Part shown: piece after piece, positions 25,257-40,785 of the stretch
How positions within the stretch are numbered: the stretch's first letter is position 1
Layout: each line of letters begins with the position of its first letter
Assembly (NCBI GenBank): GCA_007121455.1
Contig: SKKN01000059.1
Location: 1-40,785, forward strand
From: Gemmatimonadota bacterium
GTDB lineage: Bacteria > Gemmatimonadota > Gemmatimonadetes > Longimicrobiales > Gaopeijiaceae
Direction: 5' to 3'
Length of the DNA: 40,785 bases
Notes under the pieces: generated by a model
The model's database searches: none
What the model was told of the DNA's origin: nothing
The model's input: the letters and a program-made list of their open reading frames with translations, nothing else
Program-made: the position numbers and the translations under genes

Positions 25257-25330
25257 CTTCCTCACGTCTCTACGGCGACCCCCGTCTCCGCAGTTCTGAC
25301 CACCGTGTCCGCCAGTTGACGAGGCATGAG

Positions 25331-26224
25331 ATGATCGGCCTTTCAAAATATCCGACCCGCGCTCCCGGAACCCGCGAGGTGCTGGAGCATCCTGTTGCCG
25401 CCCTTGAAAGTGCGTGTCGATGCCGGGACCGGTCGGAACGCATCCGTCCGGCGCCCCCGACGCAGTCCAACGGGGAATCAGGCACAGACACGCTTTCGTG
25501 GCCGAGTGAGGCGCCGTTCACCCAGCAGGACCTGGAGCACATCGAGGTGGGGGACCACCTCGGGTTGATGGCGGACGAGCAGCTCACGGACTCCGACTGG
25601 CTCGTTCCTCTGGTACGGGATGGCTTGCAGGGGGGTGAGCGCGTGCTGGTTCTCTCCGGGCCCGCCCCGGTCGAGAGGCTTCTCGCGCTATTCCAGAGCT
25701 CGGGTATCGAGGAGGAGCCGTTCGTCCGCGGAGGGCAGCTGACCGTCACACCGGCACCGAACCTCTTCATGCGCGACGGCGACTTCGATGCGACCGTCGC
25801 CCTCGCCTTCGTGGAAGCCGAGATCGAGGTCGCGCACGCAGTGGGATACCGCGCGCTGCGCATCATATCGGACATGGGCTGGGCGCTCGAGCAGGTAAGG
25901 GACCACCGTCGGCTCCACCAGTACGAGGAGCACCTGCACCGGATCGTGGCCGGCCGCCCCTGCCTGGCCATCTGCCGGTACCACGATCAGCCGATCCGGA
26001 CCAACGGCAACGGTGCGGCGACAAACCCCGTCCTGTCCTGCCACGCTCGCTGGTTGGGTGCGGATGGGGTGACTCCGCACTTGAACGGCATTCACTCGCC
26101 GGGCGGTGCCTCCTGGCTCACCGATCCGTTGCCGTTCCCGGTGCCCCACGATCCGCTGCTCGACATGCGGAGCAGGTCCTCGGCGCCGAGGAGATCGACC
26201 GGTCTCGAAAAGAGGAACCCCTGA
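25331..26224 (+). CDS. Stand-alone MEDS-domain (DcmR-type sensory) protein
   Basis: A 297-residue soluble protein. After about 70 low-complexity residues it carries a MEDS domain (about 72-235; PF14417 type): EVGDHLGLMADEQL, GLQGGERVLVLSGPAPVERLL, VAHAVGYRALRIISDMGWAL and LHRIVAGRPCLAICRYHDQ follow the family order. MEDS domains were named for methanogen and methylotroph DcmR sensors and are thought to sense small molecules; the ligand here is unknown. ATG 25331 has GAGG six bases upstream; TTG 25316 is an alternative. The last 44 codons run into the 3' end of the convergent GGDEF-EAL gene, so the tail is probably not part of the conserved fold. A sigma-54 type promoter lies upstream. Confidence 0.85.
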   Translation: MIGLSKYPTRAPGTREVLEHPVAALESACRCRDRSERIRPAPPTQSNGESGTDTLSWPSEAPFTQQDLEHIEVGDHLGLMADEQLTDSDWLVPLVRDGLQGGERVLVLSGPAPVERLLALFQSSGIEEEPFVRGGQLTVTPAPNLFMRDGDFDATVALAFVEAEIEVAHAVGYRALRIISDMGWALEQVRDHRRLHQYEEHLHRIVAGRPCLAICRYHDQPIRTNGNGAATNPVLSCHARWLGADGVTPHLNGIHSPGGASWLTDPLPFPVPHDPLLDMRSRSSAPRRSTGLEKRNP

Positions 26225-29070
26225 GCATAGGGACAGGCGAGGCGGTGAAGCGTTTCTCGTTGAGCGGGCGTCTCCACTCCTTCCGCGATCACCTGCATTC
26301 CCAGGCTACGCGCCAGGGCGAGGACGGACCGGACCACCGATCCAGACTCGAACCCCGTCTCGCGTAGATTCCCCACGAACAGCGGGTCCAGCTTGAGCAA
26401 GTCCACCGGGAATCGGGGGAGCGACGCGAGCGTGGAATACCCCCGGCCGAAGTTGTCGATGGAAACTCCAACGCCCATCGAGCCGAGGGCTTCGAGTACC
26501 TCCGAGATCCCCGGTGGCCCCTGGGCGAGGACCTCCTCCGGGATCTCGAGTTGAAGAAAATGCGGATCGACCCCGGTCTCCTCGACCGCCTCTTCGAGAC
26601 CCCGGATCCACATGGGTGCCGTGAGCTCCGAGGCCGACAGGTTCACGCTGAGGATCGGGGGGGCATCGGGCCGGTAGCGGTCCTGCCATGCCCTGAGTTG
26701 TCGGCAGGCTTCCCGTAGCACCCAACGCCCGATCGGGACGAGGAGATTCATTTCCCCGGCAAGGGAGATGAAATCCCCCGGCAGGAGGAGGCCGCGGTCC
26801 GGGTGGTTCCAGCGAAGGAGCGCCTCGAAACCGGCGATCCCCCCGGTGGCCAACTCCACCACGGGTTGGAAGTGGAGAATAAACTGTTCACTCTCGAGCG
26901 CAGCCCGCAGATCGTCCCTCAACTGGGAGAGGGCGAGCATCTCCGCCATGAGTTCGTCGTCTGCGAGGCGGTACCGGCGCCCCCCCTCGCGTTTGGCCCG
27001 GTACATGGCCGCATCGGCATCCCCGAGCATGGCATCCGCATCGGGGTAGTCCGAGTCGCTGAGGACGATACCGATGCTTGCTCCCACCGATACTTCCTCT
27101 CCTCGGAGATCGAAAGACCTGGACAGTTGGGACTCGATCCGATCCGCTACCAGCAAGACATCGCCGATGTGCTCGACGTGCTCGAGGAGGATGACGAACT
27201 CGTCCCCACCAAAGCGCGATACGGTATCCCCCGGCCGAACCGAGTCCTCCAATCGCCGAGCCACGGCGGAGAGAAGCTCATCGCCGATGAGATGCCCGAG
27301 CTGATCGTTGACCTCCTTGAAACCGTCGAGGTCCAGAAAGAGGACGGCGAAGCGGAAGTCGTTCCGCCGCTCGGAGCGCTCGATGAGGCGGCTCAACCGC
27401 TTGAGGAAGACATGGCGGTTCGCGATGCCGGTGAGCGAGTCGCGCTCCGCTTTCCGAAGCGCTTCCTCGACACGCCTCGTCTCCGTCACATCGCGCAGGA
27501 TCGAGATGAACGTCCGAACCTGCCCCTCCGAATTCCTCATGGGAAAGACATCCCACCTCATGAGAAATTGACTCCCATCCTTCCTGTACGCGACGACCTC
27601 CTCCGACGCGGCAGTGCCCCGCTTCAAGCTCTCCCGCACCCTCTCGACCGACTCCGGCTCTGTTTCAGGACCGGAGAGGAGGCGAAAGCTTCGGCCCAGG
27701 ACCTCGAGCTCCGTGTACCCGGTCATCTCCAGAAACGCGGGATTCGCGTAGAGGATGGACGGCCCGCCGCCGCGAAAGCTGGCGGTCGTGATCACGACCG
27801 CCTCCCCCACGCTCCTCAGTGCAGACTGGAGGAGCTGAAGCTCCTCCTCTGCGCCCACTCCGGTTCGCCCCGCCCCCCGCTCATCCGCTTCCTGGGCCTC
27901 GGCACGCGCAAACAATTCCCCAGCGACCCATCCCACCGGCTCGAGGGCTTCGTCCACGTACTCGTCCAACTCCTGCTCGCGGCCGAACGAGAGCTCGAAA
28001 ACACCATGGCAATGGCCCCTGCTCACGACCGGGAGCGCCCATGCTCGACCGAAGACGGCGCCTTCACCGTGCTGATGCTCCGCGACAGGAACTTCCACCG
28101 TCGTATCGGCCCCCCGGACGGGTGAGCCGGCTTCCCACGCCCTCCCCGGGAGCCCCTCTCCTTTTCGAAACCGGGCGCCTCTCACCACCTCCGCCAGAGC
28201 ATCTCGGACATGCGGTTCGTCGCTATGGATGATCCCGCTGGAGACCAGAGCGTCTCCTTCGGCGGTCGGGGTCCAGAGGTGCCCTGCAGGAACTCCCAGT
28301 TCAAGACAGAGATCACCCAGGAAGCGTGTCAGAAGCTCCTTTCCGGAGAATGCTTCCTCCGAGGCGTTCCGAAGTGCTTTGAAGATTCTCGGTACCGGAC
28401 CCACCGCTCGACGGAGCCTCAGTTCCTCCCGGAGCTCCCGCAGGAGCTGCACCCTCTCCTCGACCTCCTTGTCGGGGACGCTTTCGCCCACCTGCAACCA
28501 CCGATCGAACTGCGGATTCGCTCTCGTCCTCCCCGTGAGATCCGCCTCGTCCGGATGCGACAAGAAGCCTCGCAGCAGCAGCTCGGGTGATGCCCGATCG
28601 AGGTTGAAAACGCAGAGGACCGAGCAGACTGGCTCTTCGTCCAGGAGCAGGTTGAGGCCGGCCTCGTAGGCCGTGAGAGCGGGCAGGTCGCCATCCCGTC
28701 TCCCGATCCCCCCCATCTGATGCACGAATCGAACGCCGAAGAATCCTTCCTCCTTCGCGCGTGCCACCTCGGCGCGAACGAGCGACAGAGCGTGGGACCG
28801 GTCCACGAATCCCTCGGGTGAGAACCAGGAGCGAAGCGAATGGAACTCCAGCCGAGCCTCGGCCATGAGGTCTCCCACGTTCAACCCACCGCTCCGGAGC
28901 GCGGCGAACAGCTCCTCGAAGGAGGGGCCCCCGTTCACCCAGATCACCCGCTCCCCGGCGTCGATTCCCTCGCGAGCGAATTCACGCCCCGCAGAGTGAG
29001 CCTCCCCCAGGTCCTGGCAGACGAGGAGAGCGTGACTGCCGACGGGGCCATTGGGTTCGAGCTCACCCAT
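26092..29070 (-). CDS. MEDS-GAF-PAS-GGDEF-EAL signalling protein
   Basis: A 992-residue soluble cyclic-di-GMP enzyme. Domains in order: MEDS (about 10-170), GAF-like (about 230-385), PAS (about 410-535; ITTASFRGGGPSILYANPAF), GGDEF (about 540-700) and EAL (about 720-960). The cyclase site is intact (GGDEF 621-625, N588, D597), and RPGD at 612-615 is a product-inhibition site. The EAL domain keeps E749, K893 and E930, but the metal-binding DDFG motif reads DNFG at 872-875, so phosphodiesterase activity may be weak or lost. ATG 29070 has GAGG seven bases upstream; GTG 29121 is less likely. It converges on, and overlaps by 133 bases, the stand-alone MEDS gene. Confidence 0.92.
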   Translation of the reverse strand: MGELEPNGPVGSHALLVCQDLGEAHSAGREFAREGIDAGERVIWVNGGPSFEELFAALRSGGLNVGDLMAEARLEFHSLRSWFSPEGFVDRSHALSLVRAEVARAKEEGFFGVRFVHQMGGIGRRDGDLPALTAYEAGLNLLLDEEPVCSVLCVFNLDRASPELLLRGFLSHPDEADLTGRTRANPQFDRWLQVGESVPDKEVEERVQLLRELREELRLRRAVGPVPRIFKALRNASEEAFSGKELLTRFLGDLCLELGVPAGHLWTPTAEGDALVSSGIIHSDEPHVRDALAEVVRGARFRKGEGLPGRAWEAGSPVRGADTTVEVPVAEHQHGEGAVFGRAWALPVVSRGHCHGVFELSFGREQELDEYVDEALEPVGWVAGELFARAEAQEADERGAGRTGVGAEEELQLLQSALRSVGEAVVITTASFRGGGPSILYANPAFLEMTGYTELEVLGRSFRLLSGPETEPESVERVRESLKRGTAASEEVVAYRKDGSQFLMRWDVFPMRNSEGQVRTFISILRDVTETRRVEEALRKAERDSLTGIANRHVFLKRLSRLIERSERRNDFRFAVLFLDLDGFKEVNDQLGHLIGDELLSAVARRLEDSVRPGDTVSRFGGDEFVILLEHVEHIGDVLLVADRIESQLSRSFDLRGEEVSVGASIGIVLSDSDYPDADAMLGDADAAMYRAKREGGRRYRLADDELMAEMLALSQLRDDLRAALESEQFILHFQPVVELATGGIAGFEALLRWNHPDRGLLLPGDFISLAGEMNLLVPIGRWVLREACRQLRAWQDRYRPDAPPILSVNLSASELTAPMWIRGLEEAVEETGVDPHFLQLEIPEEVLAQGPPGISEVLEALGSMGVGVSIDNFGRGYSTLASLPRFPVDLLKLDPLFVGNLRETGFESGSVVRSVLALARSLGMQVIAEGVETPAQRETLHRLACPYAQGFLFSRPVDLLGAEDLLRMSSSGSWGTGNGNGSVSQEAPPGE

Positions 29071-29308
29071 AGGCGGACCTCGGAGACCCGGCGAGGGCTG
29101 GGGGCCGAGGCCGCAAGGCACGGAGGCGGAAAGAGCTCATGTCGGTCGAGGGCTCAGGCTGAAGGCTGCGCGGATCCCGTCTCTCCTGGGCCCTCGGTGC
29201 AGAGGCCGTGCCGGAGCGTGAAAGCGCGGGAACCTCGCACAGCGCCATATCTCCAGGAGCCGGTCGCGTGGCGCTCTTCCCGCACCTTGTGGCGATACCG
29301 CGGTCCGG

Positions 29309-39096: not shown

Positions 39097-39194
39097 GTCG
39101 CTGCTCAGAGCAAACCCATCGAAAGGTGGGGACGCAGAGCGCCGGGGCTATCGCGGGAGAATCCTCCTGCCATGCCGGCCGGGCCGCCAGCGGC
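39097..39194 (+). promoter_or_regulatory. GEMM-I cyclic-dinucleotide riboswitch with the cyclic AMP-GMP type base
   Basis: The outer helix P1 pairs GTCGCTG (39097-39103) with CAGCGGC (39188-39194). Next comes the conserved CAGAGCAAACC, then a hairpin CCCATC-GAAA-GGTGGG with the GNRA tetraloop used for tertiary docking, then GACGCAGAGC, the third-helix strand CCGGGGCTA, a GCGGGAG/CTCCTGC hairpin and ATGCCGGCCGGGCCGCC. This is the full GEMM-I layout. Counting from the invariant GCAAACC, the base equivalent to G20 of Vc2 is A. In the literature G20 favours cyclic di-GMP, while A20 is the mark of cyclic AMP-GMP (GEMM-Ib) riboswitches. A47 is kept. It precedes the FN3/concanavalin-like lipoprotein gene. 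Confidence 0.9.
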
Positions 39195-39253
39195 TTCACA
39201 CTCACTAGAGCACAGTGCGTGCGAGGTCCGGATGGCCCAGGTCGACTCATGTC

Positions 39254-39314
39254 GCCTCTTCCCACGGGTGTGCCGGTTTTTCCTCCACGTGCCGGTTCAC
39301 GGACTGGAAGAGGC
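39254..39314 (+). promoter_or_regulatory. Ribosome-binding-site sequestering hairpin (riboswitch expression platform)
   Basis: GCCTCTTCC (39254-39262) is perfectly complementary to GGAAGAGGC (39306-39314), which contains the Shine-Dalgarno of the gene starting at 39318. Between them GTGTGCCGG (39268-39276) pairs with CCGGTTCAC (39292-39300) with one mismatch, giving a long stem. A run of five U sits in the loop. The structure would block translation unless opened, so the riboswitch probably acts on translation initiation. Confidence 0.6.
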
Positions 39315-39317
39315 CCG

Positions 39318-40622
39318 ATGCCAGGACAGAATCCATTCCTCCTCGCGATGCGAGACGGTGGTCGTAGAGCTCGAGCAGGTTCCTTCCCTACCCATCCCTC
39401 CTTCACCTCCCGTCTCCGGGTTCTCCGCGACAGGAGAGCGCCGATGGCAGCAGCCCTTCTCCTGGCCGTTGCATCTGGTTGCTCAGAGGGGCCGAGTGAG
39501 GTGACGTCGCTCACCGCTCCGGATGAACGCTCCCTCAGCACCACTTCCGCAGAAGCGCCCGCTCCCAACCGGGTTTCGGACCTTTCGGTGGAGTTGGCCG
39601 GCACGTCTTCGGTCACCCTGAGCTGGACCCAAGTGGACGACGGGACCGAGGCTCCAGCCGACTATGACCTCCGCTACGCCCCGGCACCGCTCGGGTGGGG
39701 TTGGGGGTCGGCCACCCACTCGCTGACGGGGGAATGCGCAAACCCGATCGAAGGAACGGGTGCCGGCTCAGAGATCAGCTGCACCGTGACCGGACTCCCG
39801 AACGCGGCAGACTACGACTTCCAGCTCGTGGCCTTCCGCGAAGAGGCAGACGGACGGATCTACGGCGAACTCTCGAACGTGGCCGGCGCACCAGCAAACG
39901 CGCCGGTTCTTTCGCAGTCGGGGCTTTCCGCGAACGAGCCCTCGGGCTTCGAGACCTTCACCTCACGCCGGTTCCAGGACCTGAGGGAGCATGGTTGGGG
40001 CGCCGATGTGGACAACCCGAATCTGTCGATCGTCAGCGATCCCTCGGCGCGTTCCGGATCCACCGTCGGTGAGATCCGATACCGGGCGGGGTCCACAGGT
40101 GGTCGCACTCCGGCCTGGACGGAGAACTGGAGCCTCCGGGACGAAGGATTCACTCGACTCTACCTCTCCTTTCGGGTGAAGCTCTCGAGCAACTGGCAAG
40201 GCCATCCCTCGGGCGTGAACAAGATCGGGTTCGTCTGGACCCATCAGAAACCGGTCGCCTTCCCCGTCTTCCGCGGTGCGGGCAGCGCGGCGATGAAGGG
40301 CGTCGTCTATCTCCAGGACATTCCGGGAGGGGGCCGCCGGCTCGACGGCAACCTTGCGGAGCCGGAACTGCCTCGAGGCGAGTGGCACGACTGGGAAGTC
40401 GTGCTCGTGTCGAATACCGGGAGCTCCGCAAACGGCGAGGTCCACTGGTGGATCAACGGAGAGAAGGTGGGTGAGTACACCGACATCCGCTTTGGAAACG
40501 CCGACCAGAGCAAGATCTGGGAAACCGTAGCCTGGCGGCCGATCTGGGGAGGCATCCACGGTCGAGTCGGGCAGGACATGTACATGCGGATGGATGACTT
40601 CTACGTGAGTGGACGCCGCTGA
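39318..40622 (+). CDS. Lipoprotein with fibronectin III and concanavalin-like (polysaccharide-binding or lyase-like) domains
   Basis: A 434-residue surface protein. A basic N-terminus (RLRVLRDRRAPM) and hydrophobic core end in the lipobox AVASGC with lipidated Cys at about 55. A fibronectin III domain (about 82-190) shows SSVTLSWTQVDDG, YDLRYAP and GLPNAADYDFQLVAF. The C-terminal half (about 215-434) looks like a concanavalin/laminin G-type jelly roll: LYLSFRVKLSSNW, GEWHDWEVVLVSN, GEVHWWINGEKVGEY and MYMRMDDFYVSG, a layout found in polysaccharide lyases and glycan-binding proteins. ATG 39318 is chosen because GGAAGAGG lies upstream and lies in the regulatory hairpin; the frame extends to 39126 but that would start inside the riboswitch. 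Its target is probably the cell's own or environmental glycans. Confidence 0.8.
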   Translation: MPGQNPFLLAMRDGGRRARAGSFPTHPSFTSRLRVLRDRRAPMAAALLLAVASGCSEGPSEVTSLTAPDERSLSTTSAEAPAPNRVSDLSVELAGTSSVTLSWTQVDDGTEAPADYDLRYAPAPLGWGWGSATHSLTGECANPIEGTGAGSEISCTVTGLPNAADYDFQLVAFREEADGRIYGELSNVAGAPANAPVLSQSGLSANEPSGFETFTSRRFQDLREHGWGADVDNPNLSIVSDPSARSGSTVGEIRYRAGSTGGRTPAWTENWSLRDEGFTRLYLSFRVKLSSNWQGHPSGVNKIGFVWTHQKPVAFPVFRGAGSAAMKGVVYLQDIPGGGRRLDGNLAEPELPRGEWHDWEVVLVSNTGSSANGEVHWWINGEKVGEYTDIRFGNADQSKIWETVAWRPIWGGIHGRVGQDMYMRMDDFYVSGRR

Positions 40623-40715: not shown

Positions 40716-40743
40716 GGGGGCCCGGCAGCGCTGCCGGGCCCCC
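40716..40743 (+). terminator. Long palindromic hairpin after the FN3/concanavalin-like gene
   Basis: GGGGGCCCGGCAGC (40716-40729) is followed at once by its exact complement GCTGCCGGGCCCCC (40730-40743). A purine run GAGAGAGAGAAAAAA follows rather than U. It lies 93 bases past the stop and separates this gene from the next riboswitch. Confidence 0.6.
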
Positions 40744-40771
40744 GAGAGAGAGAAAAAACCGAGCAGTTTCG

Positions 40772-40785
40772 GTCGCTGCTCAGAG
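40772..40785 (+). promoter_or_regulatory. 5' end of a probable second GEMM-I riboswitch, cut by the window edge
   Basis: GTCGCTGCTCAGAG is identical to the first 14 bases of the riboswitch at 39097-39110, including the P1 strand and the CAGAG that carries the specificity base A20. The rest lies beyond the window. It follows the terminator-like hairpin of the preceding gene, where a new regulated unit would begin. Confidence 0.6.

Follow-up and report, generated by a model that had tools for sequence, protein, structure and literature searches.

Riboswitches of the GEMM-I fold with paired changes at ligand-contacting positions 20 and 48 in Gemmatimonadota

GEMM-I RNAs that carry A at the equivalent of Vc2-20 together with G at the equivalent of Vc2-48 appear, from their aligned sequences, to be a coherent variant subclass of the fold. 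One of them lies on the forward strand of the window, the 40,785-nucleotide stretch analyzed here, which is the whole of contig C77 of a 3.53 Mb Gemmatimonadota assembly with an estimated completeness of 95.6%. The A20/G48 RNAs are best described as a well-defined candidate variant, not as a new class. The original prediction had taken the A at position 20 as a sign of cyclic AMP-GMP (3′,3′-cGAMP) sensing. What was a guess from one base is now a testable subclass, with an A20+G48 signature, a terminator design in common, and an association with cGAMP-making enzymes that is strong but depends on lineage. The messenger of the window RNA cannot, however, be read from one base, because its genome seems to be without a cGAMP-making enzyme.

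The only riboswitch match that cmscan returned in the window was to RF01051 (c-di-GMP-I, GEMM-I), at 39099-39191 (+). The match covered the full model (1-87) and scored 53.3 bits (E 8.6e-8), where the gathering score is 35. A GEMM-I riboswitch had been predicted at 39097-39194, with an Infernal search of this Rfam model proposed as the check, and the significant match confirmed it; the predicted interval corresponds to the cmscan element plus the outer P1 pairs. Every GEMM-I element that had been listed was recovered in the alignment to RF01051. The 5′ strand of P1 (GUCGCUG, 39097-39103) pairs with the 3′ strand (CAGCGGC, 39188-39194), which leader and covariation analyses identified as the 5′ arm of a terminator in sister RNAs, and a GAAA-capped helix with the conserved flanks GCAAA and GACGC occupies 39110-39135. 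When the RNA was aligned with Vc2 and the Rfam consensus, the ligand-site bases proved to be A39109 (A20, which contacts the ligand alpha base in known structures and is equivalent to A14 in PMC6274999), A39136 (A47, the intercalating base), G39137 (G48) and C39187 (C92, the Watson-Crick partner of the ligand beta guanine). The predicted A at the Vc2-20 equivalent was thus found, and the alignment added that position 48 also departs from the consensus, from A to G; canonical GEMM-I RNAs and the Geobacter cGAMP aptamer both have A there. The score above gathering, a compensatory P1 helix and the conserved A47 and C92 place the RNA in RF01051. Since A39109 stands where the c-di-GMP type has G, we file it as a variant of the GEMM-I fold and not as a c-di-GMP-type member. 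An A at this position is shared with the GEMM-Ib cGAMP riboswitches.

The same pair of bases recurred in the order to which the organism belongs. RF01051 matches were present in 51 of 154 genomes, and the 102 GEMM-I RNAs extracted from them and aligned had bases 20/48 as A/G in 52 cases, G/A in 49, A/A in one and G/G in none (the RNA on contig 2 of G047 is G20 by alignment and was counted so). The order therefore holds two groups, one with A20 and G48 (YGCTGCTCAGAGCAAA ... GACGCAGAGC) and one with G20 and A48. Molecular dynamics of the Geobacter cGAMP aptamer indicated that A14 and A42 both hydrogen-bond the ligand (PMC6274999). By the numbering equivalence drawn in this analysis, these are Vc2-20 and Vc2-48; both positions contact the ligand, so the linked change sits in the ligand site. 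Part of the linkage could also be explained by identity by descent. Across 95 A20/G48 RNAs the inner five P1 pairs were 81-97% paired, with GC, TA, AT and CG as compensatory types (variants GCTG/CAGC, TTTG/CAAA, TCTG/CAGA and ACTG/CAGT). Members of the subclass are common in both Gemmatimonadota and Nitrospirota. A20 and G20 types were found together in 17 genomes, a hint that there may be two ligands. In the literature searched, no report turned up on cyclic di-GMP riboswitches or on Hypr/cGAMP in Gemmatimonadota. At locus L332 (contig 36 of G155; also L184, 1990-2338), three tandem A20/G48 riboswitches lie 157 nt apart in one leader.

The two groups also differ in their leaders. In A20/G48 leaders the last bases of the aptamer (GGGCCGCCAGC, C92 included) pair with a downstream GCTGGCGGC, which is followed by a T-run. 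With a terminator defined by a stem of 7 or more and 4 or more T in 10, one that used the aptamer 3′ end as its 5′ arm was present in 36/50 A20/G48 leaders, against 2.25 expected from shuffles, and in 3/48 G20/A48 leaders (1.65 expected). A second, partly overlapping set gave 45/53 for Gemmatimonadota loci and 9/18 for Nitrospirota. Because aptamer and terminator share one strand, ligand binding should favor readthrough, and a transcriptional ON switch is implied for the subclass by this arrangement. The ON switch of Geobacter pilM, in which the terminator takes the C92 strand, has been described in the same way (PMC9262584). In G20/A48 leaders the start codon often lies 10-17 nt past the aptamer. 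Loci of this group in family f2 (for example L030, L034 and L117) combine canonical GEMM-I aptamers with a gene start 10-17 nt downstream, which suggests direct translation control.

Five RF01051 matches were found in the genome. Four are A20/G48 (the window and contigs 47, 16 and 29), and one, on contig 76, is G20/A48 and best matched RF03167; the three further A20 copies and the G20 copy had not been part of the original prediction. In addition, the last bases of the window (40770-40785, +; CGGTCGCTGCTCAGAG) are identical to the P1/J region seen in A20/G48 RNAs. They read as the first 16 nt, or 5′ end, of a further A20-type GEMM-I RNA that runs off the contig. Counting this one, the genome probably has at least six copies. 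A near-perfect GC palindrome (GGGGGCCCGGCAGC/GCTGCCGGGCCCCC) without a T-run on the coding strand lies at 40718-40743, between the lipoprotein gene described below and the cut riboswitch.

The gene that follows the window riboswitch (39318-40622, +, with its start at 39318 or 39444) encodes a lipoprotein, as had been anticipated. The product has the lipobox AVASGC, an fn3 domain (Pfam, 8.9e-6) and weak similarity to a polysaccharide lyase (Polysacc_lyase, 1.4e-4, below its cutoff). The copy on contig 47 precedes a Big_1/Big_2 lipoprotein gene, that on contig 29 an fn3 lipoprotein gene with weak alginate-lyase similarity, and that on contig 16 a gene for a PilZ-domain protein (2.2e-11). The window locus comes after genes for a Wzz/Wzc-like protein and a SIS/GATase protein (GlmS-like). 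Elsewhere in the window, a MEDS-GAF-PAS-GGDEF-EAL protein with an Asp-type active site (26092-29121, -) adjoins a second MEDS protein (25316-26224). Genes 3′ of A20/G48 RNAs (n=44) included Big_1 (Ig-like) 18 times, Big_2 15, fn3 9 and PilZ 2, and those 3′ of G20/A48 RNAs (n=40) included GH26 11 times, M23 6, GGDEF 4, EAL 2 and Big_1 2; these downstream genes were picked by script and some are cut by a fragment end, so that the small counts do not bear close reading. The genes under control differ between the two groups (p 9e-5 for Big_1). In Gemmatimonadota, A20/G48 RNAs typically precede Ig-like or fn3 surface lipoproteins. The original prediction had regarded control of a lipoprotein in such a genome as a new setting for a riboswitch of this type; the lipoprotein target stands, but the case is less isolated than supposed, given how common the subclass is in Gemmatimonadota and Nitrospirota.

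Hypr GGDEF enzymes, the known 3′,3′-cGAMP synthases with a GGDEF domain, carry Ser or Thr where ordinary GGDEF proteins carry Asp, and have GGDEF rather than GGEEF (PMC6456294, PMC9140294). The selectivity residue was taken at the PleD-344 position. In a sample of 395 genomes of the phylum, A20/G48 RNAs occurred in 57 and the Hypr-type pattern in 43; among the pattern matches read in a check, Ser was present in 47/47 and the GGDEF motif in 43. The genomes in these counts are related, and the association of A20/G48 with Hypr (p 1e-16 across the phylum) depended on lineage. In f4, a related Gemmatimonadota family, Hypr was found in 24/28 A20/G48 genomes versus 3/53 others (p 2e-13), and at the genus level in 8/12 versus 2/22 (p 9e-4); within genera g69 and g99 the riboswitch and the enzyme were present or absent together. 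In other phyla, 16/23 A20/G48 carriers had Hypr, among them all the Nitrospirota records that were searched. The window's own order showed no such link, with Hypr in 4/25 carriers (p 0.17). An early view that A20/G48 genomes were nearly all without Hypr (4/57, pattern FK..ND..GH..GS) was dropped: the GGDEF inventory of G155 revealed an LK-type Hypr protein that the FK-based pattern had missed, and widening the pattern reversed the result in f4. The LK-type sequences (L319, L335-L363) form a Gemmatimonadota group of Hypr-type GGDEF proteins with LK.IND..GHL.GS and the GGDEF motif. Another GGDEF domain of G155 (L311, GHEAGN) has an intact GGDEF motif and Asn as its substrate-selectivity residue. 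The Nitrospirota genome of Candidatus Manganitrophus (CP114561.1, L215) has two riboswitches of the A20/G48 type along with two matches to the Hypr-type GGDEF pattern. The co-occurrence in f4 and in other phyla supports cGAMP as a candidate ligand of the subclass, and from it we infer that the subclass was 3′,3′-cGAMP-preferring in origin.

The genome of the window gives a different picture. All of its intact GGDEF domains (9/9) have Asp at the selectivity residue, and no known cGAMP synthase, whether a Hypr Ser/Thr GGDEF or another, was found in the assembly at 95.6% completeness. DncV and SMODS proteins, considered as an alternative source of cGAMP, are absent from it as well. Hypr was likewise absent from the relative G042 (one contig), from G122 (eight GGDEF copies) and from G149 (99% complete), where all GGDEF domains whose active-site motif could be read have Asp. 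Among the four A20 copies, the one on contig 16 controls a PilZ protein. A20 alone has been described as a selectivity factor and not a hard filter, and changes at Vc2-20 shift selectivity without abolishing c-di-GMP binding (PMC9262584). The predicted preference for cGAMP is thus plausible for the subclass, from its co-occurrence with Hypr in f4 and other phyla, and unsupported for this genome; as a guess about the subclass, cyclic AMP-GMP is reasonable, but the genome does not back it as a prediction. On balance, we somewhat favor c-di-GMP, or both dinucleotides, as what drives the window RNA in the cell. If c-di-GMP is the ligand in Hypr-free genomes, some reversion of A20 to G20 is conceivable; none was seen, which counts against this reading.

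The window RNA may instead be a true cGAMP riboswitch in this organism, served by a Hypr GGDEF encoded in the unassembled part or by an unrecognized synthase; at 95.6% completeness the assembly could have missed a Hypr gene. We hold this to be a serious but lesser possibility. It draws on the way A20/G48 tracks Hypr in f4, Nitrospirota and others, on the fact that neither alpha-base contact is that of the c-di-GMP type, and on the coexistence of A20 and G20 types in one genome. Against it stand the lack of any such enzyme here, the same lack in a single-contig genome, in a 99% complete one and in G122, and the finding of Hypr in only 4/25 A20/G48 genomes of the order. A broader proposal, which we put forward tentatively and consider doubtful, is that A20/G48 RNAs form a natural GEMM-I specificity class of their own, with positions 20 and 48 changed jointly to read the alpha adenine of the ligand. 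A cGAMP network across Gemmatimonadota and Nitrospirota would then control surface lipoproteins, and an unknown non-Hypr enzyme would make the ligand in the window's order. At the other extreme, A20/G48 RNAs might be ordinary c-di-GMP sensors throughout and their link to Hypr a matter of shared ancestry. The many Hypr-free carriers, the PilZ gene downstream and the tolerance of Vc2-20 changes would agree with this, but it is unlikely, as the link recurs among genera of f4 and in several other phyla, and the joint presence or absence within g69 and g99 argues against it.

Whichever dinucleotide binds, the window copy has a leader unlike those of its sisters. An alternative hairpin at 39176-39244 (+; fold -39.1 kcal/mol, z -2.66) would compete with the aptamer by taking C92 and the 3′ strands of P1 and P3. 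No U-run follows it, the copy is without a clean GCTGGCGG arm, and a scan of the leader for promoters and terminators returned none on the coding strand. The terminator therefore appears degraded through loss of its U-run, and this loss makes the action of the window copy on its own gene uncertain. The full-leader fold also contains a hairpin at 39254-39314 (+; GCCUCUUCC/GGAAGAGGC), which would bury a Shine-Dalgarno-like GGAAGAGG before the in-frame ATG at 39318. The missing U-run and arm could be taken to mean that the copy is a decayed relic, functionless at this locus, which is most improbable given that all ligand-contacting bases and P1 are intact, the strong competing hairpin is kept and the Rfam score equals that of the sibling copies.

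We propose that these RNAs act in cis as cyclic-dinucleotide riboswitches of the GEMM-I fold. Ligand binding would hold the aptamer 3′ strand in P1, the terminator could not form and the gene would be on, as reported for Geobacter pilM. The subclass may have arisen as a 3′,3′-cGAMP-preferring sensor tied to Hypr GGDEF enzymes, as their co-occurrence suggests; in this genome, with Asp-type cyclases only, c-di-GMP or both dinucleotides would be the driver. The targets switched on would be surface and glycan-related lipoproteins and one PilZ protein. Should the subclass prove to bind cGAMP, the reach of this messenger extends well past Geobacter-like bacteria; should it bind c-di-GMP, A20 would be unsafe as a predictor of the ligand.

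Among known systems, the Vc2-type c-di-GMP-I riboswitches (RF01051) share with the window RNA the fold, the GAAA-capped helix, A47, C92 and the closing helix P1, but the window RNA departs from them at position 20 (A for G) and at position 48 (G for A). The c-di-GMP-I-GGC RNAs (RF03167) and other binding-site variants likewise place altered ligand-site bases on the GEMM-I scaffold, although the only copy that RF03167 matched was the G20 one on contig 76, and the A20/G48 copies have no separate Rfam model match. The GEMM-Ib 3′,3′-cGAMP riboswitches (Geobacter pilM and pgcA; PDB 4YAZ) differ in the A at position 48 of the Geobacter reference aptamer (A42 in its own numbering), in phylum and target genes, and in that no Hypr enzyme was found in the window's genome. 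They nevertheless share A20, A47 and C92 with the window RNA, a terminator that takes the C92 strand (described as an ON switch in Geobacter, PMC9262584) with most of its sister RNAs, and co-occurrence with Hypr GGDEF enzymes with the subclass in several lineages.
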